Assembly: GCF_022095675.1 (NCBI RefSeq)
Contig: NZ_JAHYSG010000037.1
Location: 1-64,000 of the forward strand
Length of the DNA: 64,000 nt
From: Dactylosporangium sp. AC04546
GTDB taxonomy: Bacteria; Actinomycetota; Actinomycetes; Mycobacteriales; Micromonosporaceae
Reading direction: 5' to 3'
Positions 16,229 through 58,783 of the stretch are shown one piece after another. The translations under genes and the position numbers were made by a program. The notes beneath the pieces were generated by a model. That model was given only the letters and a program-made list of their open reading frames with translations, was not told the origin of the DNA and made no database searches. Each line of letters starts with the position of its first letter. Positions within the stretch are counted from its first letter, which is position 1.

Positions 16229-16301
16229 GCGCCGCTAGCTCAACTGGCAGAGCAGCAGACTCTTAATCTGCGGGTTGTAGGTTCAAGTCCTACGCGGCGT
16301 A
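16229..16301 (+). tRNA. tRNA-Lys (anticodon CTT)
   Basis: Seventy-three nt fold into a standard cloverleaf: acceptor GCGCCGC pairs with GCGGCGT (one G-T), D-arm GCTC/GAGC, anticodon stem GCAGA/TCTGC with loop CTCTTAA, T-arm GTAGG-TTCAAGT-CCTAC, discriminator A. CCA is not encoded. Such genes are frequent integration sites, and an integrative-element remnant begins just downstream. Confidence 0.95.
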
Positions 16302-16312
16302 CTCATTTTGAA

Positions 16313-20131: not shown

Positions 20132-20499
20132 GCACCCACCAGTCCCCGTTGGGAGCCGCCGACAGCGACGTCTGGACCTTCGAACGGATCCGCGCCCTCG
20201 GCGTCACCACCACCCTCACCACAGCCGCGTCAGTGCTGGGCATCAGCCGATCCCAGGCGTACCAGCTCGCCGCCGCCAACACCTTCCCCGTCCCGCTGAT
20301 CCGGGCCGGCACCCGCATCATCGTCCCGGTAGCCGGCCTGCTCCGCGTCCTCCTCGCCGACGACCCCGTACCGGTGCCCGCTGGCCAACGACTTGATCCC
20401 GGCACCAAGGCGAGCGTGGATGCAACGACCACACCACCAGCGGATTACGCCACACGACGCTGGCGCGCCCGCACCGATCACCCGGGAGACGATGAGTGA
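20128..20499 (+). CDS. Excisionase-like HTH protein
   Basis: 123 aa with a MerR/excisionase-type helix-turn-helix at residues ~30-70 (TTAASVLGISRSQAYQLAAANTFPVPLIRAG). It overlaps the DUF2637 gene by 4 nt upstream and the integrase start downstream, the usual xis-int order of pSAM2-like elements. The C-terminal third is a polar tail. Expected role: recombination directionality and int control. Confidence 0.8.
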   Translation: MSTHQSPLGAADSDVWTFERIRALGVTTTLTTAASVLGISRSQAYQLAAANTFPVPLIRAGTRIIVPVAGLLRVLLADDPVPVPAGQRLDPGTKASVDATTTPPADYATRRWRARTDHPGDDE

Positions 20500-24013: not shown

Positions 24014-24079
24014 TGGGGGCTCCGGATGTTGTTGGGGATTGATCCGGATCATACTGCTGCGTCATCGAACGCGATAGAC

Positions 24080-24113: not shown

Positions 24114-24180
24114 GGCGGCACAGTCCGCCGACGGCCCTCACCCTGAAGTCGGGTCGGCCAGCCCGCTGAGCGTCAGCCAG

Positions 24181-25647
24181 CTACGCTTCGAGCTCGTTCC
24201 GCGTCCCCTGAAGATCGCCGATTCCGGCTGTCAGCATGGCGATCTGGTGGCGCAGTCCGACAATCTGCGGCGCATCAGCCGATAGCACTCGCTGCTCATC
24301 GGTGAGCAGTGCACGCAATGCCAAAAGGGCGGCGGGCACGTCGCCCAGCTCGGCATGGCATACAGCCGCTTGCTGCCGGCAGTGCCAGACCAGTTCGCGG
24401 TCGGCGCTCGCCCATCCGGCGAGGTCGGCTGCGAGCTGAACGAACTCGGACAGTGCCTCGCGGTACGCACCCGCGAGCATGTGCAGGTTGGCCAGGTCGA
24501 GCCGCAAATCAAGGAGGCGTGCCTCGTTCGCGTCGGGCTCTTTGGCTGCGACCTGCAGCGCCGTCGCCAGCAGCTCTGCTGCCTGCGTGAAGCGCTCCGC
24601 CTCGGCGAGTGCCCGCACCCGGTCCTGGACGTCCTCCAGTTCCTCGATCGGCAGCGGCTCGTACACCCTGGGCTTTCCAAGCACCTCCATCATTGCCGGC
24701 ACTGGCGGCGTCGGGCGTGGCAGCGGACCGAACGGATAGCGATACGGCATGGTCGGGTCCACGGACTGCCCGCTGGGCAGGATGACCGCCGGGTCTTCGG
24801 CGAGCCCACTCGCCGCAGTGGCGAAGGGGACGAGGAGCTCGTACACCTGGGCCGCAGACTCCGGACGGTCCGCGGGGTCCTTGGCGAGCAGCCGCGTGAC
24901 CAGCTCGACGACGCCACCGGGTACGCCGCCCCGGTAGTCGGCGACCAGCGGAATCGGGTCGGTCAGGTGCCGGTGCAACATTTCGGCAGCGCTGTCGGCC
25001 GCATAGGGCGGCGACCCGGTCAGCAGCTCGTAGAGGACGCAGCCGAGCGCGTAGAGATCGGTGCGCGGTCCGACGGCCGTGCTCTGTGCCTGCTCCGGAG
25101 CGATGTAGGCGGGCGTGCCGAGGGGCTGGCCGCTGATGGTGAGTCGCGGCAGGTCCGCCCCGAGCAGGGCAGTCACGCCGAAGTCGAGTACCTTGACCGT
25201 GCCCGCCGGGGTGATCATCACGTTCTGCGGTTTGAGGTCGCGGTGCACCAGCGACGCGGCGTGCGCTGCGGCGAGCACCGAGCAGATCTGCGCCCCGATC
25301 GCGGCGGCCCAAGGTACAGAGAGCCGGTCGCGTTCGGCGATCAGGTCGGCGAGCACGAGTCCCGAGACGAGCTGCATGACGATGTAGATGTCCCCGTCGT
25401 GGAACCCGACATCGTGGACGGCAGGCACACCCGGGTGATCCAAGCGGGCGGTGGCCCGGGCTTCTCGCTTGAAGCGTTCGATCGCGGTCGCCCGCTCGCG
25501 GCCCGCCGCCTCGGGCTGCCGGAGAAACTTGATGGCCACCGGACGGTCGAGCTTATCGTCGTACCCGGCCCAGACCTCACCCATGCCACCGCGGCCGACC
25601 GGGTACGTCAATTCATACCGCTCGCCGATGCGTGTGCCCGCCTGCAC
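24181..25647 (-). CDS. Ser/Thr protein kinase with TPR-like C-terminus (kinase 2)
   Basis: 488 aa from the GTG at 25647, one base after the UvrD stop. A complete Hanks-type kinase domain occupies residues ~8-270: glycine loop VGRGGMGEVW, lysine in VAIKFL, catalytic HRDLKPQN, DFG, and APEQ. A Pro-rich linker follows, then a helical repeat region (~residues 330-485) resembling tetratricopeptides (AERFTQAAELLATAL, AGAYREALSEFVQLA). No membrane helix or PASTA sensor, so it is cytosolic. Last gene of the minus-strand defence arm, so it probably signals within that system, much as PglW does in Pgl. Confidence 0.9.
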   Translation of the reverse strand: MQAGTRIGERYELTYPVGRGGMGEVWAGYDDKLDRPVAIKFLRQPEAAGRERATAIERFKREARATARLDHPGVPAVHDVGFHDGDIYIVMQLVSGLVLADLIAERDRLSVPWAAAIGAQICSVLAAAHAASLVHRDLKPQNVMITPAGTVKVLDFGVTALLGADLPRLTISGQPLGTPAYIAPEQAQSTAVGPRTDLYALGCVLYELLTGSPPYAADSAAEMLHRHLTDPIPLVADYRGGVPGGVVELVTRLLAKDPADRPESAAQVYELLVPFATAASGLAEDPAVILPSGQSVDPTMPYRYPFGPLPRPTPPVPAMMEVLGKPRVYEPLPIEELEDVQDRVRALAEAERFTQAAELLATALQVAAKEPDANEARLLDLRLDLANLHMLAGAYREALSEFVQLAADLAGWASADRELVWHCRQQAAVCHAELGDVPAALLALRALLTDEQRVLSADAPQIVGLRHQIAMLTAGIGDLQGTRNELEA

Positions 25648-25648
25648 T

Positions 25649-27826
25649 TCAGGTCGCCAGTGGTTGCACGAGCCGGCTGGTGAGGAACGGGCTGGGCGTG
25701 CCGTGCCAGAAGACGGCAAGCTCGTCTCGGGCGCGCGTGGCGGCGACGAACAGCAGCGACCGGTCCTTCTGACGTTCGAGTTGGTAGCGCTTCGGGTCGG
25801 TGTCGCGGTACCGGCTGATCATCTGCCGCGGGACGAGCCCGTCGCTGGTCCCCGCGATGATCATGCGTTGGTACTCCAGGCCCTTGAACCGGTGCATCGT
25901 GCCGATGTGGACGCCGTCGGCGTGCTTCGGGCCGTCCGGCCCGATCTCCACGGTGCGCACCCCGTCAGCCTCCAGCCGTGCCGTGACGTCTCCGGCGAGT
26001 TCACGGGTCGGCACGCAGATGGCCACCGACCCGTCCGTCGGGTTGCCCCAGAAGCGCAGTTGCTCGGCGATGAGGTCCCGCTCCTGAGCCCACGTGGCCG
26101 CGCCGCGGAACGTCGGCCGGCCGCCCCGCAGGAGCGACCGGTAGCCGGCCAGGTTCTCCTCACCGCCGTCGAGGTCGTCGTACACCTCACCGCTCATGAT
26201 TTCCAGAGCGGCGGCCAGGATCTGTTTTGTGGTGCGGTAGCTCAAGGTCAGCCGGGACGACCGTCCACGGATGTTGATGCCAAGGCTGCCCAGCGTCACG
26301 TGGTTGTCGTAGATGCGCTGGTGAGTGTCGCCGACGAGGAACAGGTCGTCAGGACCTGGAGGGACCATGGCGCGCAGCATCTTCCAGTGCGCGGCGCTGA
26401 GGTCCTGGGCCTCGTCGACGACGATATGCCGGTAGCGGGGGCGGTGGAAGCTCCCGGAGCTCTCCTCTGCGCTCGCGGCCTGCGCGGCGCGATCGATCTC
26501 CAACCGTGCGGCTCGCTCGGCCACCTGCCGCCATGTCCACACGCCCTGACCGTCGAGCCAGTTGGTGAAGCGCTCGGTGAGTTGCCAGACCTGGTCACGC
26601 TCGGCCCTCGTGAGGCTGCGTCCCCGGTTGGGGCGGCGGGCCTTGAAGTAGTCGGTACGGGAGTTGAGAACCTGCCCAAGGATCACCTGGATCCATTCGG
26701 CCGCCAGGAACTCGGCGTCCCAGCCGGAGTCGCCTGTCTCCAGCAGGAAGCTCTGCCACAGCTCGGGGACCTTGTTGTCGTCGATCACGCGCTTCGCGAC
26801 GCCGGCCTTCGCCTCGGCGACGACGCGGCTGGCCAGCCGGTCGATGTTGACGATGTCCACCCGCGACACCATCTCCTGACCGCCCAGGGCGATGAGCCGG
26901 GTGCGCAGGTCAGCCGCGAGGTTGCGGTTGAAAGTGGTGAGCAGGATCGGCTTGTCCGATCCGGCCGGGAGCTGCTGCGCGAGGTGGGCGACCCGGTGCA
27001 GGGCGACAATCGTCTTGCCGGTGCCGGGCCCGCCGCCGACCCGGGAGGGGCCGCTGTAGCGGCGCTCGACCAGTTTCCGCTGAGTCGGGTGCAGGAAGAT
27101 CTGCCAGCGCTCGAACGACTCGCCGAGCATGGCCTGCAGCGCCTCGTCGTCGGAGGTGACCTGCGTGGCCGGCCGCTCGACGGCGGCCTCGAAGTCCTCG
27201 GTGTTGACCGGCTCTTCGGCCCGCACCGGATCGGTGATCTGCGCCAGCACGTCGTCGTAGGACTTGCCGTCGAAGAGCGCGAAGAGGACATCGGTGGTCA
27301 GCTGCGGTGCGCGGTCGAGCAGTTCGAGCAGCTCCGCTTCGGTGGTCAGCGCACGGATCTGCGGCAGCAGCGGTTCGGCCACACCCAGGTCGAGGAGCTG
27401 CGGGTCTGTGTATGCATCGAAGAGCGGCTTCTTGGCCGGCTCGGGCTCAGGCTCCGGCGGGACGACCCGGCCGACGATGCTGTCACCGACCGGCGCGAGG
27501 TCTACCACCTCAATGCCGCCGGTGACGCGGTTGATGCGGTAGGCGTACCGGTCAAGATCGTTGTAGACGGCGCTTCGGTGTTCGACGGCGACGAGCAGGT
27601 AGTCTGCGTCGGCAATGTGAAGTAGCAGTGCCCGGTAGTCGCGGTTGACCCGCGCCGACATGAGCCGGGAGTCACCGTTGAGCGACTTCAGGTTCAGACC
27701 GGGGTTGTCCGGGTTGTGGCGGAACTTGTGCATGAACTCGTACACGGCGCCGATGTCGGCCCGGGTGAGCTTCATGATCTCTTTGTCGGCGCGGTCGAGC
27801 ATCCGCAGCGTCGCTCCGGTGTTCAT
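25649..27826 (-). CDS. UvrD-family helicase with RelE-like N-terminal domain
   Basis: 725 aa. The first ~100 residues look like a RelE/ParE toxin fold (SARVNRDYRALLLHIADADY, VEHRSAVYNDLDRYAYRINR). A linker leads to a superfamily 1 helicase: Walker A GGGPGTGKT near residue 261, TTFNRNLA, Walker B VVDEAQDLS, LSYRTT, GTMHRFKGLEYQ and FVAATRAR. Start ATG overlaps the upstream helicase stop by 4 nt; stop is one base from kinase 2. Likely a DNA translocase in the restriction process; whether the RelE-like part still cuts RNA or only acts as a binding module is not visible. Confidence 0.9.
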   Translation of the reverse strand: MNTGATLRMLDRADKEIMKLTRADIGAVYEFMHKFRHNPDNPGLNLKSLNGDSRLMSARVNRDYRALLLHIADADYLLVAVEHRSAVYNDLDRYAYRINRVTGGIEVVDLAPVGDSIVGRVVPPEPEPEPAKKPLFDAYTDPQLLDLGVAEPLLPQIRALTTEAELLELLDRAPQLTTDVLFALFDGKSYDDVLAQITDPVRAEEPVNTEDFEAAVERPATQVTSDDEALQAMLGESFERWQIFLHPTQRKLVERRYSGPSRVGGGPGTGKTIVALHRVAHLAQQLPAGSDKPILLTTFNRNLAADLRTRLIALGGQEMVSRVDIVNIDRLASRVVAEAKAGVAKRVIDDNKVPELWQSFLLETGDSGWDAEFLAAEWIQVILGQVLNSRTDYFKARRPNRGRSLTRAERDQVWQLTERFTNWLDGQGVWTWRQVAERAARLEIDRAAQAASAEESSGSFHRPRYRHIVVDEAQDLSAAHWKMLRAMVPPGPDDLFLVGDTHQRIYDNHVTLGSLGINIRGRSSRLTLSYRTTKQILAAALEIMSGEVYDDLDGGEENLAGYRSLLRGGRPTFRGAATWAQERDLIAEQLRFWGNPTDGSVAICVPTRELAGDVTARLEADGVRTVEIGPDGPKHADGVHIGTMHRFKGLEYQRMIIAGTSDGLVPRQMISRYRDTDPKRYQLERQKDRSLLFVAATRARDELAVFWHGTPSPFLTSRLVQPLAT

Positions 27827-30800
27827 CGGCGTCGTTCTCCGCTCGTCGCTGCGATCTGTGCCGCAAGTTCGTCGACGGACCATTCCTGGGCCGTCCGGAC
27901 ATGCCAGCCGGCGTCCGCGTAGGCGCGGTCGCGGTCGGCGGTCTCCGGGTCGTCGTCCGGGCCGGACAGCACGACGGCAATCCGCTGCTCTGGCCAGGCC
28001 AGCTCGGCCGGCCACCCCTGGTCGCCGAGTTCGTAGCCAACGACAGGCAGCGAAACGTCACGACGGGCCAGGCTCCGTACGAGCGCTTCCAGTTCGGATT
28101 CCTCCGAGTCCAGGTACCGCAGGACGTCCTGCCATGGCGAGTCGGTCTGGACGCTGCGCGGCTCGACCGGCTTGGTCTCAGGCACAACGCCGAGCCAGGT
28201 CGCGGTCTCCTCGTCGAGGGCAAACGCCTGCTGGGCCAGTACAAGCCCGGTGCCCTCGGTGACCACGAGCGAGGCCGGATCGAAGGAACCGAGGGTAGAG
28301 AGGGCTAACTGCCCGCTGTCTCCCCCGCCACCGGCTAGGAACTGAATGATGTTGCCCCAGCTCAGCCAGCTGGTCCAGCGCCGCTTATGGCCATCGCTCG
28401 CCACCGTCGCCGGAAGATCGTCGATCACCGTCAACGCCGACCACGCGGGAGACTTCCCACGGCTGTCGACGATCAGAGTCACCGGGCAGTCGGCGTTGTC
28501 CTTGGCGCGGAACAGCGCGATCTTTCCAGGTGCGGCAGGAGGCAGTGGCTCGCCGCGTACGGACGCGAGGATGCGCTCGCCGATGCCGCGCGAGTCGGAC
28601 GCGGTTCTCTCACTGGTCTGCTTGAGTAGCCCGGCGAGGGCCGCTTCTGCGCGGGCACGCCAGCGTGCCGGGTCGGGATCGGCGAGGAACTGCATCAGCG
28701 TGTCGATGGGGTTGGCCCAGACGTACCGCTCCAGGTCGGCGGGGTCAGCGCCCGGGGCGGACTGACGGTAGAGGTTCCGGGCGGCCTGCTTGGCGTTGCC
28801 GGCGTATGGCTCCCACGGCCCAGCGCTTTCCGCGTTACCCCAGGTGTCGACGTCGTCCCAGGTAAGGGCGAAGACGTGATAGTCGTGGGCACGCAGTCGG
28901 GCCCTCTTGTCGGAGTCGTCCGCGAGCCGGTTGTACTCCGGGGACGCGTGGTACTTGAACCCGTCGAGGTAGACGGCCACCTCCTGCGACGGCGCGTCGA
29001 GGCGTCTGAAGTGCACATCGGGCCGGGTACCCCGGATCGTGTTCTGCAGCTTCATCTGCCAGTGCGTCACGTCGCGGCCGTTCGGCGCAGTCAGTCGCAC
29101 GTCGGCGACGCGGGCGCCGTCCTGATCGGTGCGCTTGTCGATCCGCAGGCCGGAGTGGGGCATGCCGGATCGTGCCAGCAGCTTGTTGAGGAACCGCATC
29201 TCCAGCTCGCTCTCCACCTGGTGGATGAGCGAGATCTCGTCGGTCCGCGTGCCTTCCTGGATCTGCCAGCCGTCGAGGAGCCCATCCAGCATGCCGAGTG
29301 CCTCGGCCCGGCTCATCAACGGGAACTCGTCGTTGCGGGCGTAACGCAGCAGACAGCGGTGGCAGGCAGCTCGGCCCTCATGCTGACAGACACAGGTGCC
29401 GATCAGTTGGCGGGCCTTCTCCAGGATGCCGCGGAACTCCTCCGGGTGAGCCAGCCGGTGCAGATACCCGGTGCCCTGCGGCTGGGTGTCGTAGACGACC
29501 ACGAAGTTCCGCGTGCCCCCGCTCTGGCCGTCGGGCATGGTGGCGCTCGTGATCCGCAAGTGGGCCGGGTCACCGCCGTACTCGGCGGCGATACCCAGCC
29601 GGACGGCGGCGGCAAACGATACGACGCGCTCCTCCACGACCGCGGTCACCGCGGGGATGAGGATGCGCAACGCCTCGGTCTGCAGCTCGTGCGCCAGGAT
29701 CAGCTCGACATCCTCGGCAGTGCCCGGCGAGCGCCGATGTTGGCACCAAGGCCGGTGGTGTTCGGCACCGGGGAGGACGGTCGAGCCGGACGCCTGCGCG
29801 GCGAGCTCCTGGCTGACGACGGGCTTGCCGTCGACTGTCGTGCCGCCGCACGCGGTACAGGTGCGGAACGGGTTGATGCGCACCTCGTCGCCGGCGAACG
29901 CCTCCGTGACCCGGTCGAACCGCTGCGCGCCCAGGTTGAAGTGGCGGATCATCGCCTGCCGCGTGTAGTCGACCCCGAACGTGTCGCGCGCATGGCGCCA
30001 CGATGAGTCGACCCGATCGGGGTCGACGTCGACAGTGACGGTGGTGGAGTAGAACCGGCGGTCCCGATCGTCGTTATCGTCGCGGATCCGCGCGTCATCG
30101 CGCTTGTCGCGCGTCAGCACCCGGGTCGGCTGGAGCACCTTGAACAGCTGGCCGTGATCGGCGATGCCCTGATCGCGGCAGCGCGGGCAGGCGCTGGTGT
30201 CCTCCCGCGCCAGGTGAGTCCGCACGTACCCGCACTGGGCGCAGACCCGCCAATGCTCGTACGCCGGCCGGTCCGCGGGCCCGATGTCCAGGCCCGAGAT
30301 CTCGTGCTTGTAGCCGCGGACGTAGTAGGTGTTCCCCGGCGCGATCTCTACCAGCGCCGGCCGGGCCGGCCGGTCGTACTCGCGCAGCTCGCTGTGGAAC
30401 CGCCGGGCACCATCCGGTGCCTGCTCCTCCCAGGTGAGGGTCGCCTCCAGCACGGTACGGCTGTCAATCAACGCGTAGTTGGGCAGCAGGCCGAGCTCGA
30501 CGAGCGTGCCGTGCGCGGCGGCCGACCCGATCTCGGCGAGCCGCTTGCGCACCGCCTTCGCCTCGGCGCGCAGCATCCTCAACTCGCGGGCGTGGTCCGG
30601 GTCGCTGGCCACCAGCTTGCCCGCCGCCTGGTCGATGCCCTGCAGCCGTCGCCGGAGGTCAGCCAGGCGAGCCTCCCACGCCTCCTCAGCCTCCTTGACC
30701 CGGTCGGTGATCCCAGTGTCGGCGAACTGCCGCAGCTGCTGCGCGGCGGCCTCGGACACCTTGGCGCCGAACAGGCCGAGAAACTCCTCGACGAGCAGCG

Positions 30801-33800
30801 AACCGTCACGCTGCCCGGCGTGGGCGAGCCCGGCGAGCCAGCCGCTCGGGCCGAACAGGACGTGGGCGCGGCGGGGCAGCGGCAGCACCCCGGGCAGCCG
30901 GTCACGGGCGGCGAGGTCGATGAGGTGGGCGAGGTACTGCCGGCGCAGGATCTCAACCGCGGACAGGAAGCAGCCGGGCGGGACGATCTGCCCGGCGATC
31001 ATGTCGCGGGGTTCGGTGAGGTAGTACCGGTCCCGCTCGGACCGGCCGACGAGGGTCAGCACGAACGCGTTGCCGCTCTTGCGGCCGGCACGGCCGGCCC
31101 GCTGCACGTAGTTGGCCGGGCCGTTGGGCAGCGACGCCAGCACGATCGCGGACAGCGCCCCGATGTCGATGCCCATTTCGAGGGTGGGCGTGCACGACAG
31201 CACGTTCGGGTCGGTGTACCGGATGCCGTCGCGGAACTGCTGCTCGACGGTCTCCCGCTGGGCCCGGGTCAGCATGCCGGTGTGCTCGCCGGTGACGACT
31301 CGGAAGACCGGGCTCTCCAGGTAGAGCCGCCGGTAGTAGTCGTCCGGGGCGGTGTCGTCGTCTGCGGCGCGCAGGCGGCCGGTGCAGCGGTACTGCCGAC
31401 ACGGCTGGCCGATCCAGTCAACGACCCGGTCCGGGTGCTCGGTCTGCTGCCAGTGGCAGGTGTCGCAGCCGACGCCGGCCGAGACGGCCGCCTCATCGGC
31501 GAGGCGGGTCACCCGCAGATGGCCGGGCAGCAGCCCATACACCGTGTTGCCGTCCTCCGTGTTGCCGGACGCGACGACGCCCGCGGCAGCCAAGGCCGGC
31601 AGCAGACGGGACAGGTACGCCGAGGCGTCTTGTGGCTGTAAGCCGAGGCAGCGCGTCGTCCAGTCCTGGTACCAGTTTCCCTTCGCGGTGATCGCGTCGA
31701 ACTCCGACCGCGCTTTCGGGCTGGCGAGCAGGAACGCCGGAGCCGACACGCCACGCGGGAACGCGGGCATCCCCGCTGGGCGGCCACCCCAGACCTGCCA
31801 GCGGGTGCCACCCCGCTTCAGGTACGGGGAAAGCCACTCGTGGTAGATCGCGCCACGGGTACGCAGCCGCTCCAGCAAGCCGCGCAGGAAAGCCAGGTAC
31901 CGCACCTCGTCCGGCAACTGCCCATCGAGCGGGACCGGCCCGGTCAGCTGGACGTCCCGGCACAACGCCACGGCCTGCGTCGGGTCGTCGAGTACCACCT
32001 CGACCGCGGCGGACCGAGTCAGCTCCAACGTCCGGCCCTGCCGGGCCCGCAGCCCCACCTCCATCACGGCGGCGAACGCGAGACGCTCGGCGATCAGCGT
32101 CCACGTCTCGTGCGTGCCCGCGTGCTCACCAGCGAGCAGGCTGTCCACGCCAGGCTGATCATGGAGATCGGGCGGTACCACCGTGGAGAGAATCTCCGGC
32201 TCCACCGCCGCGTCGATCATCTCGGCGATCAAGTCGTCCAGCCCGACTGGCACACCCGGCTGCAGCTGGCTAGCCAGCAGCGAACGCAGCGAGAACGCGT
32301 AAGCACGGTTGGCGACGAACCCGGCTCGGTGTGCGGCATCCTGCACCGAGTCGTTGAATAGCAGCGTCTTTCGCTCGGCCGCCGCCAGCTCGCCACCGGT
32401 GAACAGCTGCGTAATGGCCACAGAGGCCAGGGTCGCCAGGCCAGCACCGAGGAAGCGGATGCCGTGGTCCATCTCGCAGGACGGGCACCGGTCCGCCTCC
32501 GCCGCGTCGATCGCCGTCACGTCGCCGAGCACGACGACCGATTCATCCGTGCGCTCCCGGTCCCGCTGCGGGTCGAACGGGCGCGCCCGCCGGCCGTACT
32601 CCAGCACCAGCAGACCCCGCGACCGCTGCTGCACCTCGTCATCGGTGGCGGCGATGAACGCCCGCGCGCGCCGCTTGTCCCGGCTCACGCTCGCCCGGTA
32701 GATCTTGTCCGGGTCGATCTCAAGCTCGTGCTGGTCCTTCTCCAGCGAGAGCGCCATCCATCCGGACCGCCCACAGTGGCGGCAGTAGATGGCGGGCAGT
32801 CGCTGATAGCGCGCGTCGGCGACGACGGAGTCGATCTCCGGGGCGAACGGGTCCAGGTCGCGGGGCGGCTCGCCGTACCAGCCGAAGAGCGTCTCGTTGG
32901 CGACGCCGCGCAGCAGCCGCGACACTGCGCGGACCCAGAGGTGGGTCTCGATGTTGAGCAACGGCCGGCCCGGTGCCTCCGGATTCTGCGCCAGTGACAG
33001 CAGACCCACGAACCGCGCGAGGGCCTTGGCGGTGATCTCGGGCCGGGTCTTCATCGCGCTGCCCCAGCCGGTCGCGTTCTTGCGCGGCAGGATCTCGATG
33101 ACCTCACCGAAGGTGCGCGGCTCCGGCCCGAGCGAGTCGAGCACCGCCTTGGTCAGCGGATGCCGGCGCAGCAGCGAGCCGAGGCGGGCGGGGTCCTTCA
33201 CGCAGTCCTCGCCGAGCAGCAGCTCAGCGACCTTGGCCATCAACTGCTCGTCGCGGTCGTCGATCGCGGCGAGCTCCTCCGGGTCGGGCAGCGGCAGGTT
33301 GAAATCCTGGTGGGCGACGAACTCGCCCGCCTCGTAGCGGTCCTCGCCGACCAGCGAGCCCTCGTCGAACGCGACGCCGAACACCTGCTCGGCGACCTCG
33401 CGGATCGCCGTACGCCCGTCTTTGCCGCCACCCTCGCCGAGCGTGGCGGAGGTGGCGACCGGGCAGATCGAGCCGAGCGGGTGCTCAGAGGTGGTGAGCC
33501 GGAGCGCGGCGGCGAGGCGCCGCAGCAGCATCGCCACGTCGGTACCCTGCGCGCCGTCGTAGGTGTGGAACTCGTCGAGGACCACATACGCCGGGGCGGC
33601 GCCCTCCCACAACGGCAGGTCGTCGGCCCGCTGCAAGAGCAGGTCGAGCATCTTGTAGTTGGTGATGAGAATGTCCGGCGGCGTGCGGCGCATCTCGGAC
33701 CGCTTCGTCATCACGTGCCGGTATTCGATCGCCGCCACATCGCCGATGTAGAGCCCGGCGGTGACCTGGCTCAGCGCGGGGTCGGAGAGCAGCTCGTTGA

Positions 33801-34245: not shown

Positions 34246-37200
34246 GACGACGTCCACCCCGCGTCGATGGCGTCCTGCAGTCGCTTACTGAATACGGCGT
34301 GCGCCTGCCGGTACTCGCTCTCCCGATCCGCCTTGTAGAACGGCGCCACGTACCCTTCCGGGACCGGATTCCGCTCCGGGTCGTCGAAGTACGCCATCAG
34401 CTGCTCGTAATGCTCTTTCGTCTGGCCGTATCCGAACGCGTGGTGGCTGCGGGCAATCCGACGCCCCGCTTTGTCGAACCAGGTCTCTCTTTCGTAGTCC
34501 AACAAGATCGGATAGCGCGAACGGTAAACGGCGACAAGCTGGTCGGCCGTAATTTCAAGCCATACCGCCACAAGTGAGTCGAGTTCGACAAGAGCGGAGC
34601 GGCGGGCACACTCAGACCGCAGGGGGGTGATCCGATCCCACGCAGCAGTGACGCTTCCAAGGTCGGGGACTCCCGGCCAATCGATGGCCCACGTGTCCAC
34701 AGCCCAGATGGAGCGGAACAACTCAGCCCAAAGCGAAGCGTAGTCCGCGGTTAGGCAGTGTAGGCGCATGGTGCGCAGGAGAAGACCGTTGACGAGCGGG
34801 TGCTGAGGGCTGCCGGTTGGCATCTTGGGTGCGTCGCCGATCTGAAGGTCGGCACGTCCGACAGCCCGGAGCAGGTAGTCAAGTGGCAGCGCAGACCAGA
34901 AACCGGCGGCGATCGCAGTCGCCAAGTTGTCCGCCGCCGCCAGGGAATGAACTGCGTTGACATGAGAAGGGCCAGGCGGAATGAGCGCCGCGAAAAGGCT
35001 GCGCTCGGTATCGAAGGGAATCATCCGGCGCCAGGCCAGCCGAAAGAACTCGGTGTATGGGCGACGATCCCAGACGTCCTGAGCAGCGATCCATCGTTCC
35101 CGGTCGGAGGCGCGGACATAGTTCGTCCGGGGTATGACTTTTTCCGGAAGGCCGGTGATATCCCATGTCGACCAGTCGCGGTTAGTCTTGCAAGGATTGT
35201 TGGGTTGCTTACTGAAGGGAGTGGCCACAGACAGATGGGGGCCTTGCAGAATCACCTCATGAAGAGATTCCGGCGTAGTGCTGGACCATCGAATCAGGCC
35301 GTCCTTCTTGCCGTTCGCCTCATCGTATCCCCGGCTGATGCGGGGCGCATACGCCCCGAGGCGGTGCTCGGCCCTCGACAGAGCCGCAATGGCCCCTTGC
35401 TCCTCAACGGTCACCGGATAGAGCAATGGAGTCTGACTGATAGGCGTCTGCGAGTCACCGCCCGACAGACGCTGCCATTGCGCAAGCAGCTTCTCATCCA
35501 CCTTGATGAGTCTGGACCGGTGAGGGCGCAGCTCCCACTTGCCCTCATGCTTGATTCCTGGCACATCGCCACTACCGTCGTGCTGGAGGGAGTCCACCAA
35601 TGTTCGCGGCGCGAAGAGCCAGCTCGTATGGGTAAATTCAATGGACTGGCGGGCACCGTATATATGAATACCAAACTCGGTATTTGCGTGCACCTCCGGA
35701 AATACGCCGGCACGGTTGGAGAAATGTGCGTGGAACAGCAGGTTCTTGTACACCGCCGCCCGCAGTCGCCCCTCCTTCACACCGCCGAAATGCGTATCTG
35801 GATGAACCATGCCCGCGGCCCCGGAAGCGCCAAGGTTTCCCCATACGCGGCATATGAAGGCCCTGTAAAGATCAGCCTGCGTGCCCGCCAGCAGCGGGTA
35901 CGTCGCCGCCGAACCCAGTATCGCCACCGTACCGGCATTAGCGGCCAGCGAACTCAAGAAGTAGAGCGCCGCCGGAGTCGAGGTCAATACCAGACACTTC
36001 CGCCTCTGCCATTCCGTGACGCTGGGCTTGTCTGCCAGCATGAACCACGGTTCTAGCTCTGCGAGGATCACATCCTCCTGCCAACGCGGCCGAACCCACG
36101 GAGGATTACCCATCTGGAGGTCGAAGCCGCCCTTGGCGAAAGTCTGGGCGAACGTCAGTTCCCAATGGAAGAAGCCGTGCTGCTCGGCAATGGCCTCAGC
36201 GGTTTGCAGCCACGAGAAACGGTCGGCGAGGCGGTATGACTCGTCCATGCCCATCAGGCCGACCAAGTCGCCTTCGTAGTCACCGAGCTCGCTGAGCGAC
36301 TCGAAGTCGCTGACCAGCGAGTCGGGAGGAATGTCGGAGCGGCCGATGAGTGCTTCGGCGAAGGTGAGCCAGTCGTCCAGATCAGCCAACGGCACCTGCA
36401 TGCGAAGCTGTTCGGCTAGCGTCATCTTGCGGATGCCGGTCGGCTTGGTCGGCAGCTCGAGTTGCTGCGGCGCTGTCTGGCCAAAGAGGTCCTGCACCGC
36501 AAAACTCTCTGGCTCGTCGTACACCGGCAGGTCTTTGACGTGGGTGACCTCGACAGGCTCAGCGGGGTATACGGTGTCCGACCCATCGAGCAAGCCAACC
36601 TTGTCCAGCGGCCAGTACCACAGCGAGCACCAGACGTCCATCAGCGTTTTGAGTCGCCAGTACGGTGTGCCCGGTCTGGTCAGGTCTGCGACGATCTTCT
36701 CGCGTGGCACCGCCTCGGTGACCTTCGGCAAGTTCTGCGCTTCCCAGATCTTGATGTCGCGGCGGATCTCGCGCTCGGAGATCTCAAGTCGCCGCTGGAC
36801 GAGGTGCCACAGGTACTCGACGCGGCGGGCCAGCGCCTGTAACCGGGCGACCTGCGAAGCCCTGCCACGCGCGGTCGGCACGCGCTTCATCACCGCGCGC
36901 CACTTCTTGAACTTCTCAGTCTCGGTTGGCGCCAGCTCGCGAGCCTCCTTCTCCCCCGCGACCACGCCCCAGCCGTCGGCCGGAAGCAGGAAGTGATGGA
37001 TCGTGCCCTCGTCGATCGGGCCCTCGCGGAATGGCTGATCCTTCGGCGCGGTGGTGAGCCAGGACTTGTCGGCGAGCTGCTTCGGTGTGTACGTCTGCCG
37101 TCGCCCGCCAATCAGGGAGTTGCCGCGTTGCAGGTGCAGGCCGAACCAGGGCGCCTGAAGTCCCGCGTGCATGACGTTGAGCCAGAGCGACACTTCGGCC

Positions 37201-39143
37201 AGTTCGACCGCGGTGCGGTTAAGGTCGACGCCATAGCAGTTGTGCAAGGCGATGTACGCCTTCACGCGCTGGAGTTCGAGGTGGTACTGCTCGGGATCGA
37301 GTCGCTTGTCGAGTTCCTTCTGACGGCGGCGCAGGTATTCGGCAGCGACCTGATTAATCGCCTCGTTGAGGAACGCGCCCGAGCCCAGCGCAGGCTCGCA
37401 GATCGTCCAGTTGAGCAGCTCGCGAGCCAGAGTAACCGTGCCGTTCTGGTCGAGGCGGTACTTCAAGGCGAGCTGGACGGTGACTTCGGTCAGCGACTGC
37501 GGGGTGTAGTAGGAGGCGCTGGTTTGCCGGTCGCGGCCGGCGAGCCGATAGACGAACGAGCCCGGCTCGTAGGTGACCCGGCTGCGAACGCCTGTGTAAG
37601 GGTTCTCCTTGTAGACGAAAACCGCGTCGTCATATTCGTCCACTTTGGACGCCGGGATCATCCACGAACCGTCCTTTGGGTCGCCGTTCTTGGCGACCTC
37701 GTAGAGCTGTTCGGTGGCGACGAAGCCGGTGTAGGACATCAGGCCCTCGTAGACCGCACCGAGCTGATTGATGCCCAGCTGGGCGTACGAGATAAAGCCA
37801 CCCCGGCCCTTCTTGTTGCCCTTACGGAGCATGAGCCGGCGCAGTACCTGATACAGCGTGGCGTTACGCAGCCGCGTGTCAAGCTTCGGGCCGGCGGGGT
37901 CGTCCGGGTCGCTGCCCGGCTGGGGGACCAGCCGGCCGATCAGCTTCGTGTACTCGGGCAGGAATAGGTTAGACCTCATCGGCTCGAAGCGCAGTCCGAT
38001 ATCCTCGCTGGCCCTTTCGTCGACGGCTTCGCTACCACGTTCCCGATGACCCTTGTTGACCATCCGGAAGAGCAGGTCGAGCGACTCGTACAGGTGGAAG
38101 CCGCCCTCTGCCGAGGGAGCCATCCGGCGCGAGATTAGCTCGCCGAGGCGGCCGAGGCTGTAGCCATCGACGTACTCGGGGTCGTTCACCGGCAGCACGC
38201 CGAGCTCGGGTCGCGCCTCTGCGTAGAGAAGGAAGAGGATGCGGTACAAGTACCGCAGTGCCTCGCGGCCGAGATCCTTGGCGAGCTCGTCGAGGTCCAT
38301 GACCTGCTGCGGTTGGTAGCCGGCCTGCCGGATCCGGTCGAGCACCTCGTTGGCGATGAGTTCGACCGAGACGCGTAGTCCTTCACGCAATTCGCTATCT
38401 ACGCCGGATGCATGCTGCCGGGAGCCGGCGACAAGGTCGGCGAGCGGTTCGGTGCCGCCCTCGGCGGTTGGTCGCAATGAGTCGGCGCCGAAGAGCGCCG
38501 CGATGACGTCGAGTTCCTTGTCGTCGTTGCGGCCGTACGCGATGTCGAGGCTCACCGCGAGGTAGCGTCCCTCGCCCCAGACGCTTCGGTCGGCGAGGGT
38601 GAGGACGCCGCCGCTGAGGATCAGTACGTAGCGGGGCGGACTGTCGGCGGCCAAGAGCCAGGAGGCGAGTTTCGCGCCGGTTTCGATTGTCTGGCCGTCC
38701 GCGAGGGTGACCGGCTGGAGCAGGCGACCGGCATCGGTCGGGTCCTGGGCCGCGTCGGTGTCGACGGCCCAGCCGCAGTCGATGGCAACGATGCCGTGGC
38801 CGGCGGCCAGGTCCGCGTGGGCAACCTGGATCTGGTGGTCCTGTCGGCCCCGTTCGACGGTGATGGTCTGCGGCTTCGGTTCGAAGCCGAGCTGGGTCAG
38901 GATCTCGTTGTGCAGCTTGCGTAGCCGCTCGGGGTCGAAGAGCTCGAGGTCGGCCAGTTCGGTCTTGGCGTTGAAGTAGTCGCGGCGGTAATGGCGCAGC
39001 CCGGCCCGCGGCGTGGCCCGACCGGCCTTCTCCTCGTCGGCCCACCGCTTGAACAGCCCGCCCTTGAGGGTGGTCGGCAGGACTTCGGCGAGGTAGTGCG
39101 CGGAGAGGTATTCGCCGCGGTTGGTCAGCGATTCGAAGCTCAT
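34242..39143 (-). CDS. Eco57I/PglX/DrmMI-type adenine DNA methyltransferase
   Basis: 1,633 aa, class I SAM-dependent N6-adenine methylase. An N-terminal region of ~550 residues precedes the SAM motif CEPALGSGAFLNEA (about 581-594) and a catalytic NPPW motif (MGNPPWVRP, about residue 1012), with the large inserted region typical of Eco57I-like enzymes. The C-terminal ~500 residues probably select target DNA. No obvious PD-(D/E)XK nuclease. Expected role: host DNA marking, as DrmMI in class 1 DISARM or PglX in BREX/Pgl. Codon composition of the C-terminal half (about 34,400-36,100) is visibly lower in GC than the N-terminal half, hinting at a domain swap. ATG overlaps the SNF2 stop by 4 nt. Confidence 0.92.
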   Translation of the reverse strand: MSFESLTNRGEYLSAHYLAEVLPTTLKGGLFKRWADEEKAGRATPRAGLRHYRRDYFNAKTELADLELFDPERLRKLHNEILTQLGFEPKPQTITVERGRQDHQIQVAHADLAAGHGIVAIDCGWAVDTDAAQDPTDAGRLLQPVTLADGQTIETGAKLASWLLAADSPPRYVLILSGGVLTLADRSVWGEGRYLAVSLDIAYGRNDDKELDVIAALFGADSLRPTAEGGTEPLADLVAGSRQHASGVDSELREGLRVSVELIANEVLDRIRQAGYQPQQVMDLDELAKDLGREALRYLYRILFLLYAEARPELGVLPVNDPEYVDGYSLGRLGELISRRMAPSAEGGFHLYESLDLLFRMVNKGHRERGSEAVDERASEDIGLRFEPMRSNLFLPEYTKLIGRLVPQPGSDPDDPAGPKLDTRLRNATLYQVLRRLMLRKGNKKGRGGFISYAQLGINQLGAVYEGLMSYTGFVATEQLYEVAKNGDPKDGSWMIPASKVDEYDDAVFVYKENPYTGVRSRVTYEPGSFVYRLAGRDRQTSASYYTPQSLTEVTVQLALKYRLDQNGTVTLARELLNWTICEPALGSGAFLNEAINQVAAEYLRRRQKELDKRLDPEQYHLELQRVKAYIALHNCYGVDLNRTAVELAEVSLWLNVMHAGLQAPWFGLHLQRGNSLIGGRRQTYTPKQLADKSWLTTAPKDQPFREGPIDEGTIHHFLLPADGWGVVAGEKEARELAPTETEKFKKWRAVMKRVPTARGRASQVARLQALARRVEYLWHLVQRRLEISEREIRRDIKIWEAQNLPKVTEAVPREKIVADLTRPGTPYWRLKTLMDVWCSLWYWPLDKVGLLDGSDTVYPAEPVEVTHVKDLPVYDEPESFAVQDLFGQTAPQQLELPTKPTGIRKMTLAEQLRMQVPLADLDDWLTFAEALIGRSDIPPDSLVSDFESLSELGDYEGDLVGLMGMDESYRLADRFSWLQTAEAIAEQHGFFHWELTFAQTFAKGGFDLQMGNPPWVRPRWQEDVILAELEPWFMLADKPSVTEWQRRKCLVLTSTPAALYFLSSLAANAGTVAILGSAATYPLLAGTQADLYRAFICRVWGNLGASGAAGMVHPDTHFGGVKEGRLRAAVYKNLLFHAHFSNRAGVFPEVHANTEFGIHIYGARQSIEFTHTSWLFAPRTLVDSLQHDGSGDVPGIKHEGKWELRPHRSRLIKVDEKLLAQWQRLSGGDSQTPISQTPLLYPVTVEEQGAIAALSRAEHRLGAYAPRISRGYDEANGKKDGLIRWSSTTPESLHEVILQGPHLSVATPFSKQPNNPCKTNRDWSTWDITGLPEKVIPRTNYVRASDRERWIAAQDVWDRRPYTEFFRLAWRRMIPFDTERSLFAALIPPGPSHVNAVHSLAAADNLATAIAAGFWSALPLDYLLRAVGRADLQIGDAPKMPTGSPQHPLVNGLLLRTMRLHCLTADYASLWAELFRSIWAVDTWAIDWPGVPDLGSVTAAWDRITPLRSECARRSALVELDSLVAVWLEITADQLVAVYRSRYPILLDYERETWFDKAGRRIARSHHAFGYGQTKEHYEQLMAYFDDPERNPVPEGYVAPFYKADRESEYRQAHAVFSKRLQDAIDAGWTSS

Positions 39144-41938
39144 GCGGCTGTCTCCGGAGTATTGACGAGGACGGCGAGCACCCGCAGCAGCGGATCACCG
39201 GCGGTCTCCAGCCGGTCGAGCAGGTCGTTCTGCTCCTTGACGGTGCCGTGGACCTGCTTGCGGCGTTTCTGTTGCAGCGGGGCCGGCAGCTCGTCCAGCA
39301 GGCTCTGCTGCTCGAAGCGGGTCAGCCGGTCCCGGTATCGGCGCAGCGGCTCGGCGTTGGCGGCGGCCCATTCGTCGCGCTTGTCCGCAAGGTGCCGCCG
39401 GGCGGCGGCGACGGCCTGCGGTACGAGGGCCTGCACCTCATCGAGCGGGACGGCGATGGCGCGGTTGACCATCTTCGGGCCGACGCCGGCCGCGGCCAGC
39501 GCCTCGTCCATCGGCTTGATCACCGGCGCGCCGGGAAGGCCGGAGACGGCCATCCACTCGACCACGGTGGGCTGGCCGAGACGGTTGGCGTAGACGCCCT
39601 GCACGAGGAAGACCGGGCCGTCGACGTCTGCGGTGAGGACCGGTGCCTGCTGGCGGCCGAGGCGGATCAGTACCTTGTCGACCAGCCAGTCGATCATTGG
39701 GTGGACGTCGCTGAGGAACGCAATATCGGGCCACGTCGTCGTGGTGGCCTTGCGGGCCTCGTCGAGCTTGCGCTGCCCCAGCTTGCGGTCGAAGGTGACC
39801 TTGAGGCGAAGCTTGTCGCCCTCCTCGTGCGCCTTGAGGTAGGACTTCGGCAGGTCCGACAGCCGGTGCATGAGGTCGTCGGGTGCGAGGAACGTCAGCA
39901 GCTCGTCCTCGCGGCGCAGGTCGATGGCGTCCTCGGGTTTGTCGTCGTAGAGCTCGCGGAGCGCGATGTCGACGAATTCGCTCGTCGAGTCGAAGAGCTT
40001 GGACACCCGCGCCCGTGGTACCTCGGTTCCCGCCTCAAACTGCCCCACCCCCGCCATGAGATCTCCCAGGACGTCCACCTCGAAGCCGGCGTCGTAGGAC
40101 TCGTCCACCGTCTTTCCCTCGAGGAGGTCTCTGACCAGCCGGTCCTCTTCCACCTTGGCGTCGTACATGCCGGTCATTGCCTCGACGCTGCCGAGGCTGC
40201 GGTGGGCGATCTCCTCCCGATCGAGCAGCTTCTCGGCGACCGTGCGGTCGTCCTTGGCGTCGATCACCTCGGAGGTGAGGATCAGAGCGCGGAACTGCGG
40301 CTGGTGGCGTTGGCCGTAGCGGTCGATGCGGCCGTTGCGTTGCTCGATGCGGATCAGGCTCCACGGGATGTCGTAGTGGATCAGGTGGTGGCACTGCTGG
40401 TGCAGGTTGACGCCCTCGGATGCGACGTCGCCGGTGAAGAGCAGTCGCACCTCGCTGCTCTCCAGCTCGAACTCCTGCAGTACCTTCTGCTCGTCGGCGT
40501 CGGTCAGCCCGCCGTGCAGGACGCGCACCGCGCCGGGCTTGAGGCCGAGCTTGGCCGGCACGACTTCGGCGAGCCATTTCAGAGTTGGTACCCGCTCTGA
40601 GAAGACCACGACCCGGGTGGTGCTGCCTGGCTTGATGCCGATGGTCTCCAGCTCGGTGAGGAGCCGGTTGAGCTTGCTGGAGTCCCGGTCGGTCATAGCA
40701 GCTGTCAGCTCGGCGAGCTGGTCCAACGCGACGGCTTCGGTGCCGGTCGCGTTCTTGCGCCGGTTGGCGACGGTGGCGGCGAGCGCCTTGTGGGAGGAGA
40801 GGAAGGACTTCAGCAGCGTGTACGGGAACAGCCGGTCCAGGCCGCGCAGCGGCTGGTCGCTCCACGTGCCGGCCAGCCACACCTCGGCCAGTTCGGCGAA
40901 GATCTTCTCTTCGGCGTTGGTGGCGGGGCAGTGCAGCGGGACCGATGGGCCGCGGTCGGCCCAGCGGTCCCCGATCGCATCGCGTACCTCTGGGCTGATC
41001 TTCGTCCGGCGCAGGTACAGGTGCTCAATGTCCTTCGCCTGGTAGTCCTTCTTGTTGGCGATGGCCGCCGGGTCGAGCAGCGAGATGAGCTCGGCGAACG
41101 ACTCCTTGTCACCGTTGTGCGGGGTGGCGCTGGCCAGCAGCAGCGCGTCGGTCCTGGGGGCCAGCCGCCGGGCCAGCTCGTTACGCAGGTTGCCCTTGTT
41201 GATGAGGTTGTGGGACTCGTCGATGACCACGGCGTCCCAGGTGATCGCATCGAGGTGGTGGCCGAACTGGCCGGCGTCCTTGAGCGTGTCGACCGAGATG
41301 ATCGCTCGCTTGAAGTAGGTGAACGGGTTGCGGCCAGCCGGGATCTCCTGCTGGATGCGCTGAATGCCGGTCGAGTCGAGACGCACCAGTGGGATCGCGA
41401 AGCGGGTCCACAGCTCGCGCTGGAACTGCTCCAGCACCTGCTGCGGCGAGACGACCAGAATCCGGTCGCCGCGTCCGCGTCGGATCAGCTCGGCCAGGAT
41501 GAGCCCGATCTCCAGCGTCTTGCCCAGGCCCACCACGTCGGCGAGCAGGATCCGCGGGCGCAGCCCGGAAAGGGCGAGTTCCGCTGGTCGCTGTTGGTAC
41601 GGCAGTGGGTCAAGCAGGAACCGGTCGGCCAGCGCCAGCCCGCGCTCCGAACGTGGGAGCGGCGTACGACGGAGAACCGCCTCCAGGAAGAGCCGGCCGC
41701 GCCGGAACCGTGACGAGGTGTCCTGGACGAGGATCGTGTCCTCCGGTCGCATCGCGCGTACCTTCTCCAGGCCCGTGAAGAACGTCGCCTCCATGTCCTG
41801 CACGAACTCCGACACACCTACGGCCTTGACCATGGTTCCGTCGTGCGGGGTGGGCTTCGCGGTGCGGACGAGCCACTCCTCGTCGCGGACGAGGATTCGG
41901 GCACCGGGCGCGAACGACGCGGACTCCGGGTTGGTCAT
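39140..41938 (-). CDS. SNF2/RapA-type helicase, DrmD-like
   Basis: 932 aa. Superfamily 2 ATPase: Walker A ADVVGLGKTLEIGL (about 133-146), DESH box in VVIDESHNLINKG, and helicase motifs V-VI in DVASEGVNLHQQCHHLIHYD and EQRNGRIDRYGQ. An N-terminal ~90-residue SH3-like start (GARILVRDEEWLVR) is shared with DrmD-like proteins. Likely a double-strand DNA translocase that works with the methylase and DUF1998 helicase. ATG at 41938 with GGAAGG upstream; 13 nt after the kinase 1 stop. Confidence 0.9.
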   Translation of the reverse strand: MTNPESASFAPGARILVRDEEWLVRTAKPTPHDGTMVKAVGVSEFVQDMEATFFTGLEKVRAMRPEDTILVQDTSSRFRRGRLFLEAVLRRTPLPRSERGLALADRFLLDPLPYQQRPAELALSGLRPRILLADVVGLGKTLEIGLILAELIRRGRGDRILVVSPQQVLEQFQRELWTRFAIPLVRLDSTGIQRIQQEIPAGRNPFTYFKRAIISVDTLKDAGQFGHHLDAITWDAVVIDESHNLINKGNLRNELARRLAPRTDALLLASATPHNGDKESFAELISLLDPAAIANKKDYQAKDIEHLYLRRTKISPEVRDAIGDRWADRGPSVPLHCPATNAEEKIFAELAEVWLAGTWSDQPLRGLDRLFPYTLLKSFLSSHKALAATVANRRKNATGTEAVALDQLAELTAAMTDRDSSKLNRLLTELETIGIKPGSTTRVVVFSERVPTLKWLAEVVPAKLGLKPGAVRVLHGGLTDADEQKVLQEFELESSEVRLLFTGDVASEGVNLHQQCHHLIHYDIPWSLIRIEQRNGRIDRYGQRHQPQFRALILTSEVIDAKDDRTVAEKLLDREEIAHRSLGSVEAMTGMYDAKVEEDRLVRDLLEGKTVDESYDAGFEVDVLGDLMAGVGQFEAGTEVPRARVSKLFDSTSEFVDIALRELYDDKPEDAIDLRREDELLTFLAPDDLMHRLSDLPKSYLKAHEEGDKLRLKVTFDRKLGQRKLDEARKATTTTWPDIAFLSDVHPMIDWLVDKVLIRLGRQQAPVLTADVDGPVFLVQGVYANRLGQPTVVEWMAVSGLPGAPVIKPMDEALAAAGVGPKMVNRAIAVPLDEVQALVPQAVAAARRHLADKRDEWAAANAEPLRRYRDRLTRFEQQSLLDELPAPLQQKRRKQVHGTVKEQNDLLDRLETAGDPLLRVLAVLVNTPETAA

Positions 41939-41951
41939 CGAACGAACCTTC

Positions 41952-43025
41952 CTACAACGTCGGCCGACGGGCGTACTGGCGGCGAACCTTCTCGACAAGC
42001 CACATGACGTCAGGTCGAGGCTTGACCTGAGGCACAGGATCAACCGGAGTCGGCTCGGGTTCCGGCAGGTCGGCCGGCAGGACGACGGTTGTGACGGCGG
42101 TGTCCGTCTCCGGGTCCTGCTTGGGGTCGGTGAGGTGCGGCGGGACGAAGAGTTCCGCGCTGCGGTCAAAGGTCGACTCGCGGATCCGCCGGCGCAGATC
42201 GTCCGCCGACACTCCACCTGCGGTAGCGACTTCCAGCAGGCGTTTCTGCGCTGCTTTGAGCGTGGGACGAGCGGTCGGGTCGAAGGCGAGCATCGCCCCG
42301 ATCAGTGGTTTCAGCTCGGCTGGCACTCCCGCCAGATCGGGCAGGTCGGCTGGGTCGGTGATCCGGAGCAGGAGTCCCCACGAGTTGGTCGACGGATAAA
42401 GGCCATGGCCGGTGAGCGCGAAGACCAGCGTGGCCGCCACGCCGTAAACGTCGGCGGCCAGCGTCAGGTCCCGCTCGCCCTTCACCTGCTCGGGAGACAT
42501 GTAGGCAGGGGTTCCCACAATCTCGCCCGGCGCGGTCAAGTAGCTTTCCCGGTCCCGGAGCACCGCCAGCCCAAAGTCGATCACCTTCGGACCGTCTGGT
42601 CCGAGGATGATGTTCTGCGGCTTGAGGTCGCGGTGGAGCAGCCCAGCCTGGTGGACCTTGGCCAGACCGTCAGCGAGCATGGCTCCGATCATCGCGGCGA
42701 TCGGCAGCGGTAGCGGACCGCGGTCGTCGACGTACTGCCGCAAGGTCAGGCCAGGGATGTACTCGACCGCCAACCATGCCGGGTCCGCGGAGAGGTCGGC
42801 GTTTTCCAGCCGGGCCACTCGGGAGCCGTACACCAGTTTGAGGCTTTCCAGCTCCGAGGCGAAGCGGTCGCGGATCGTCGGGTCGGTGACCAGGTGGTGC
42901 TTGATGAGTTTGACGGCGACCCGGTCGGCGGTCGGCGAAACGGCGAAGTACACATCGCCCATGCCACCCGACCCGAGGCGCTGTACCAACTGGTAGTCGC
43001 CGACCGTTGTCAGCTCCGGCGTCAT
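41952..43025 (-). CDS. Ser/Thr protein kinase (kinase 1)
   Basis: 357 aa. Hanks kinase domain in residues ~10-265: glycine loop LGSGGMGDVY, lysine in VAVKLIKHH, HRDLKPQN, DFG and SPEQ, all intact. The remaining ~90 residues are Pro/Glu-rich with a basic end and no sensor or membrane segment. The start is preceded by AAGGGGGCC. It opens the coupled five-gene run that ends in kinase 2. No PP2C or PglZ phosphatase gene occurs in the window to reverse it. Substrates may be the adjacent helicase or methylases, but that is a guess. Confidence 0.9.
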   Translation of the reverse strand: MTPELTTVGDYQLVQRLGSGGMGDVYFAVSPTADRVAVKLIKHHLVTDPTIRDRFASELESLKLVYGSRVARLENADLSADPAWLAVEYIPGLTLRQYVDDRGPLPLPIAAMIGAMLADGLAKVHQAGLLHRDLKPQNIILGPDGPKVIDFGLAVLRDRESYLTAPGEIVGTPAYMSPEQVKGERDLTLAADVYGVAATLVFALTGHGLYPSTNSWGLLLRITDPADLPDLAGVPAELKPLIGAMLAFDPTARPTLKAAQKRLLEVATAGGVSADDLRRRIRESTFDRSAELFVPPHLTDPKQDPETDTAVTTVVLPADLPEPEPTPVDPVPQVKPRPDVMWLVEKVRRQYARRPTL

Positions 43026-58728: not shown

Positions 58729-58783
58729 ACGCCGAACATAGCTGACGGTAACTGCGCGACATCGAGGCCGAGGAGGTCTCCGG

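Follow-up and report, generated by a model that had tools for sequence, protein, structure and literature searches.

Dactylosporangium sp. AC04546 carries an ARMADA type II gene set flanked by two Hanks-type Ser/Thr kinases, and the upstream kinase, K2, immediately precedes ArmA and shares its strand in all 61 readable actinobacterial loci (80 fetched, 19 unreadable). The likelier interpretation, though far from a settled one, is that an actinobacterial lineage has made K2 a permanent part of its ARMADA II anti-phage system. The four-gene core is already known, and the conserved kinase is an addition to it. The cluster probably serves in anti-virus defence, and the presence of an own kinase in many actinobacterial ARMADA loci hints that DNA restriction there is switched on and off by phosphorylation.

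The gene run and its ARMADA type II core

The window, the whole 64,000-nucleotide stretch of DNA analysed (contig NZ_JAHYSG010000037.1), belongs to a genome of 13.0 Mb in 348 contigs. According to the list of open reading frames and a Pfam scan, six tightly coupled minus-strand genes run from 43025 down to 24181 and encode, in order, Pkinase, SNF2-rel_dom/Helicase_C, Eco57I/MmeI_Mtase, DEAD/Helicase_C/MZB, UvrD and Pkinase domains, where MZB is the DUF1998 region of ArmC. The features of the window are as follows.

16229..16302, plus strand: tRNA-Lys (CTT), integration target (ARAGORN)
16266..16304, plus strand: 39-bp direct repeat at the 3' end of tRNA-Lys, one element end (exact repeat)
20496..21956, plus strand: tyrosine integrase of the element (Phage_integrase, E 1.9e-17)
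24181..25647, minus strand: K1, Hanks-type kinase, ~488 aa from GTG 25647, C-terminal part TPR-like (Pkinase, E 4.6e-43)
25649..27826, minus strand: ArmD, UvrD helicase (UvrD-helicase, UvrD_C; structure model matches UvrD)
27823..34245, minus strand: ArmC, YprA/DruE-like helicase with fused DUF1998 (MZB), 2144 aa (DEAD, Helicase_C, MZB)
34242..39143, minus strand: ArmB, PglX/Eco57I-type DNA methylase, NPPW motif at residue 1013, 1633 aa (Eco57I, MmeI_Mtase)
39140..41938, minus strand: ArmA, SNF2/RapA (BrxHII/DrmD-like) helicase, 932 aa (SNF2-rel_dom, Helicase_C)
41952..43025, minus strand: K2, Hanks-type Ser/Thr kinase, 357 aa, directly 5' of ArmA (Pkinase, E 1.5e-36)
41955..41999, minus strand: C-terminal tail of K2, VRRQYA, of the pattern [LIMV]RxxYA, possible docking peptide (pattern counts across K2)
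43388..45316, minus strand: MT, N6-methylase-like protein with HTH-like N-terminus and type I M fold, 642 aa (N6_Mtase, E 2.2e-32)

The coupling is close throughout. The K2 stop codon (41952-41954) is separated from the ArmA ATG (41938) by 13 bases, ATGA overlaps join ArmA to ArmB (39143), ArmB to ArmC (34245) and ArmC to ArmD (27826), and a single base separates the ArmD stop from the GTG of K1 (25647). For ArmA, ArmD and K1, the starts of the longest ORFs lie too early, and better starts were assigned; ArmC has an alternative GTG start at 34257. A preliminary description of this DNA had listed six coupled genes with these domains, and that account stands. Its statement that the kinases open and close the run applies to the coupled run only, because the MT gene, a seventh gene on the same strand whose relatives recur beside these genes, ends 362 bases 5' of K2. 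Its remark that there is no phosphatase agrees with a Pfam scan of 26 open frames of the window, whose listed domains include none. A 119-aa frame overlapping K2 (43022-43381) has no Pfam match and was not taken as a gene; the frames 3' of K1 (22160-24065) also have none, and nothing above 80 bits was found for them across the 80 loci. Scans of 23900-43500 were uninformative, with no promoter-like site against 1.4 expected and three terminator-like sites against 6.2 expected.

The whole cluster lies on an integrative element of about 48 kb at the tRNA-Lys gene, the second copy of the 39-bp repeat being located just beyond the window at contig position 64388-64426. The ArmB-ArmC junction has no insert in the window. 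Among nine extended loci, eight carry ~6-17 kb of other genes at this junction, and L045 has 1.8 kb. Four of ten junction-insert proteins scanned have Pfam matches (GmrSD twice, CHAT, and AAA with PLD).

Judged by sequence, the four middle genes are the ARMADA type II set ArmA-ArmB-ArmC-ArmD and not DISARM. This gene order is named ARMADA type II in a preprint (Bell et al. 2025, PMC12458937), and the window has both the order and the fusion of a YprA-like helicase, closest to DruE, with DUF1998. The four-gene E. coli system is reported to protect against 13 of 80 phages, with all genes needed (PMC12458937). An E. coli plasmid locus (L116) has the same four genes in the same order and no kinase; identity to the plasmid homologues is 34% for ArmA, 33% for ArmB, 30% for ArmC and 36% for ArmD. 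No ARMADA model appears among the PADLOC matches listed. There, ArmA matches DrmD (281 bits) and also BrxH, ArmB matches REase_MTase_IIG (955 bits) and DrmMI (159 bits), ArmC matches DruE best (304 bits), and ArmD matches GajB.

Two terminal regions of the core were compared with those described for ARMADA. The C-terminal region of ArmC, a Vsr-like nuclease according to PMC12458937, can be aligned to ARMADA relatives with P1746, D1747, D1765 and G1766 conserved in a six-sequence alignment, and no domain model matches there. The part homologous to the ArmD N-terminus is called RelE-like in the same preprint, and ArmD is homologous to the E. coli protein over this part too. Pfam ParE_like reached E = 0.09 on the UvrD protein, a PDB sequence search for RelE gave no match, and a Foldseek search, which covered the N-terminal part only within the whole ArmD model, listed UvrD-type helicases. 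A RelE-like part on ArmD is plausible.

Kinase K2 beside ArmA

Conservation of K2 was assessed in a scan for ARMADA II loci limited to one genome per species, in which the best 80 of at least 574 confirmed loci, the closest relatives, were fetched. The 61 loci with K2 comprise 27 as fetched, L092 through a closer query, nine extended on the same contig, and 24 recovered by searching for K2 and extending the locus (21 stay on one contig as judged by size, three continue on another contig of the same genome). An initial view that L092 lacks K2 was overturned by the closer query. In L043, L070, L073, L090, L103 and L092 the fetched sequence stops within the K2 gene. Gaps between K2 and ArmA range from -2 to 330 bases. 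Chance adjacency of K2 and ArmA is not credible given that genomes of 5.3-11.3 Mb (30 genomes) hold 43-116 first-look kinase candidates each, which is an argument rather than a computed probability. K2 also occurs in three further Micromonospora loci (G446, G457, G327) and on one Streptomyces plasmid; it was not found at G284, G204, G278, G000:C104, a Tsukamurella plasmid or the E. coli plasmid, which are more remote ARMADA II loci.

Among 296 sampled genomes of the phylum, five ARMADA II-like ArmC proteins were found beyond that of the window. All five further loci were kinase-free in the first stretches fetched; the reading that ARMADA II has no kinases was dropped, since G246 (the same locus as L051), whose stretch had been truncated, proved to have K2 on extension. 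In the remaining four, no K2 was found.

K2 keeps its catalytic residues. In an alignment of 38 rows (37 loci and the window), counting for each position only those rows that cover it, the glycine-loop Gly is present in 33/33, the catalytic Lys in 34/34, and the Asp residues of HRD and DFG in 37/37 each; L085 has T at the HRD+2 Lys position. K1 and K2 share 34% identity across 285 aligned residues, and the catalytic Lys and the Asp residues of HRD and DFG are present in each. A midpoint-rooted kinase tree places all K2 proteins on one side and K1 on the other (L103_K2 was dropped as too short). Across 36 loci, window included, K2 tree distances correlate with those of ArmC (r = 0.94) and ArmA (0.86), with 0/1000 permutations as high; ArmA and ArmC correlate at 0.90, and shared host ancestry adds to all of these values. 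K2 is strongly conserved.

After a variable linker, K2 ends in [LIMV]RxxYA, a pattern that was picked after inspection of the tails and lies within the last 30 residues in 62/66 proteins. The four K2 proteins without it (L097, L105, L107, L110) form one clade and have another ending in common. As controls, the pattern occurs in 0/119 K1-type kinases, in 66/13200 shuffled tails, and in 55/5390 open frames of at least 200 aa in the fetched loci, 51 of these being kinases; among kinase frames of the fetched loci, overlapping fetches included, it occurs in 52/106. Of the four matches outside kinases, two are ArmB proteins, from G000:C104 and G204, both loci without a kinase. A similar helix, mostly E[MY]RxAHAxF, closes other ArmB proteins. 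It may be guessed that the K2 tail imitates the end of ArmB.

Kinase K1 and the methylase-like protein MT

The preliminary description made the kinases part of a restriction system, and for K2 at least a conserved place in such a system is borne out. The two kinases differ in this respect: K2 keeps its place, and K1 varies freely. Of 74 loci that show 1 kb or more, K1 follows ArmD on the same strand in 13, is convergent in four and is absent from 57, and the convergent K1 proteins form a separate clade in the kinase tree. K1 is therefore an accessory gene. Its C-terminal part matches TPR_12 weakly (E 0.029).

The contexts of K1 extend beyond ARMADA. In a sample of 61 Micromonospora genomes centred on an ARMADA-bearing one, a K1-type kinase (cut-off E <= 1e-100) is found in 12, and all 12 lie inside restriction-type operons: seven ARMADA II, three type I restriction-modification and two class 1 DISARM. 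The type I operons include G439, with the order MT-HsdM-HsdS-HsdR-K1-NACHT protein, G425, which is alike with a weak HsdS match, and G421, in which HsdM and HsdR are accompanied by a 412-aa frame without a match at the HsdS position. The DISARM pair comprises G445, with the order DrmD-DrmMI-DrmA-DrmB-MT-K1, and G453, called class 1 DISARM by DrmD only. MT or its edge is present in 10/10 of these 12 loci where it is in view. MT also adjoins K1 in L041 and L103, and it lies 5' of K2 in L036 and in three of the 24 loci from the K2 search. The homologue lists of K1 and MT, with 93 and 88 distinct contig sizes, have 25 contigs below 1 Mb in common, assuming that equal size means the same contig.

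These contexts suggest, as the bolder part of the interpretation and mainly on the Micromonospora sample, that MT and K1 form a movable pair. A fixed pairing is opposed by the number of Micromonospora MT clusters, which far exceeds that of K1-bearing genomes, and by the K1-adjoining MT proteins of DISARM loci, which are only distant relatives (42-43% identity). In the kinase tree, the K1 of the window does not group with Micromonospora ARMADA K1 proteins; it groups with an unplaced Dactylosporangium kinase and the type I-associated K1 proteins at modest support (0.76).

MT retains the SAM motif DPAAGSG, but the NPPF of type I m6A subunits is replaced in it by HPPF. The motif is present in 14 of 15 aligned MT proteins as HPPF (10), GPPF (1), SPPF (1) or NPPF (2, both on the DISARM side); among the best 120 of 4935 MT homologues, 119 have HPPF (112 by pattern, seven by reading) and one has NPPF. 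In PacII, a joint change of Asn and Phe in the M1 motif is reported to lower methylation (PMC9613975). HPPF is no proof of inactivity, and the conserved His may point to altered rather than lost activity. A structure model of MT (pLDDT 81, pTM 0.59) resembles subunits of type I methylases, PacII M1M2S among them, at a query TM of ~0.4. Because its fold is that of a type I methylase and its catalytic motif is altered, MT may read methylation rather than write it, a role that is a prediction.

Possible roles of the kinases

The preliminary description saw a DISARM-like core in a system conceptually between Pgl/BREX type 2 and DISARM, while noting departures from ordinary DISARM; the departures are real, and the core is instead ARMADA type II. 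In DISARM, the YprA helicase (DrmA) and the DUF1998 part (DrmB) are encoded by two genes. The window shares DrmD-like helicase, DrmMI-like methylase and YprA/DUF1998 parts with class 1 DISARM but has helicase and DUF1998 fused in one 2144-aa protein, without separate DrmA and DrmB genes and without drmC in the run. MADS combines the methylase MAD2 and the Ser/Thr kinase MAD6 in one defence locus, and BREX type 2/Pgl combines a PglX-like methylase with the kinase PglW; the window resembles both in having methylase and kinase, with ARMADA helicases in place of the MADS partners. These likenesses and the PADLOC matches of ArmA to DrmD and ArmB to DrmMI would favour membership in one of the three systems, yet the NCBIfam cut-offs are widely missed: DrmD reaches 303 of 610 bits, MAD6 144 and 112 of 460, MAD2 23 of 720, and PglW 77 and 42 of 990 for the two kinases. 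Membership is accordingly so improbable that it can nearly be dismissed. Druantia is linked to the window through DruE, the best PADLOC match of ArmC, and has unlike operon partners; ARMADA and Druantia helicases are sister groups according to PMC12458937. ARMADA type II of that preprint resembles the window in the ArmA-D order, in homology and in an element at a tRNA gene (E. coli), so the core is catalogued; the two kinases and the methylase-like gene are additional. The main text of the preprint does not use the word 'kinase' at all, and no earlier description of a kinase with ARMADA was found in the literature listings on kinases together with ARMADA, YprA, DISARM, MADS or type I systems.

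Given the conserved position of K2, it is very unlikely that the kinases are only carried along in a defence island, unlinked to the system. The richness of actinobacterial genomes in Hanks kinases and the patchy occurrence of K1 fit that idea, which the 61/61 adjacency and the distance correlation already make hard to hold for K2. The kinases could also be independent infection-triggered effectors that act on host proteins like PD-T4-6, giving two defence layers in one operon. PD-T4-6 models are the best PADLOC matches of both kinases (313 and 188 bits), but these models match kinases generally, and an independent effector need not keep one place beside ArmA or track ArmC as K2 does; this explanation is unlikely, if still worth weighing. 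That K2 acts only on cluster expression, as an operon regulator outside the restriction complex, is a rather more doubtful option. K2 is first in the coupled run, with 362 bases upstream that hold no convincing gene, whereas its conserved tail and its coupling to ArmA suggest a protein partner within the system, and the loci examined have no conserved partner regulator beside K2.

For the favoured reading, an ARMADA II system with K2 as a fixed component, the sequence features at hand are four Arm proteins in canonical order and a kinase coupled to ArmA, intact in its conserved catalytic residues, co-inherited with ArmC and bearing a conserved tail. ArmB would methylate and thereby mark host DNA, and unmarked DNA would be attacked by ArmA, ArmD and ArmC, the last with a putative nuclease at its C-terminus. 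We infer that K2 docks on the Arm complex via its tail and phosphorylates it, which would set when restriction is allowed; phospho-regulation of restriction, as the preliminary description suggested, would follow from this role. A kinase is dispensable for ARMADA as such, because the four-gene E. coli system protects without one (PMC12458937) and kinase-less actinobacterial loci exist. K1 and MT would supply a second, exchangeable input, with MT reading the methylation state and passing the signal on through K1. A wider plug-in layer of phospho-control in actinobacteria, with K2 as a docked ARMADA II subunit and MT-K1 as a movable input module common to ARMADA II, type I restriction-modification and class 1 DISARM, is a tentative extension that we regard as possible without expecting it. 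A kinase module on restriction-type systems has a parallel in the TerY-P triads found with CoCoNuT, for which a phosphorylation-dependent switch was proposed (PMC11090510). TerY-P consists of a kinase, a PP2C phosphatase and a VWA protein, and neither of the latter two is listed among the window frames scanned.

It has long been asked how restriction-like systems avoid self-damage and time their attack, and nothing in ARMADA of E. coli points to control by a kinase. If K2 has the role proposed here, loss of one of its catalytic residues or of its tail should change restriction. If MT and K1 are indeed a movable pair, they would offer a first handle on signalling common to otherwise different restriction systems, and different restriction machines would obey the same kind of kinase signal.

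The integrative element and its second cluster

The ARMADA II system shares an integrative element of ~48 kb, bounded by 39-bp direct repeats at tRNA-Lys, with a second, divergent candidate defence cluster.

16266-16304 and G000:C37:64388-64426 (same contig): 39-bp direct repeats at tRNA-Lys, ends of the integrative element
46367-57924, (+) strand: second candidate defence cluster

The second cluster encodes a DrmD-like SNF2 helicase (420 bits), a UvrD-like protein, a ZacB/PLD-like protein and a ZacC/PDC-M27C-like helicase, along with a ZacA-like protein for which the match is weak. Long direct repeats also occur inside the element, one pair at 58778-59400 and 63317-63940 and another at 21983 and 62867, with 185 22-mers repeated >3 kb apart.

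ArmB and the ArmB-ArmC junction

The terminal helix of the methylase ArmB, E[MY]RxAHAxF, is similar to the tail of the upstream kinase K2, and in two kinase-less loci this helix reads MRQAYA.

34245-34394, (-) strand: ArmB C-terminus, with the terminal helix

Insertions recur between ArmB and ArmC: in loci L037, L038, L044, L047, L051, L087, L101 and L112 this junction holds 6-17 kb of other genes, some of them defence-like.

Related loci in this and other genomes

Contig G000:C104 of the window's genome carries another ARMADA II-like locus (L022, L023), which lacks the kinases; its ArmC is 39% identical, and its ArmA is matched only in part. A single Micromonospora genome, G327, has two ARMADA II loci (L083; L163-L164) that belong to different lineages. 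In genome G439 (L152, L153), the N6-methylase-like protein MT and a K1-type kinase flank a type I restriction-modification operon, which is followed by a NACHT/STAND protein.
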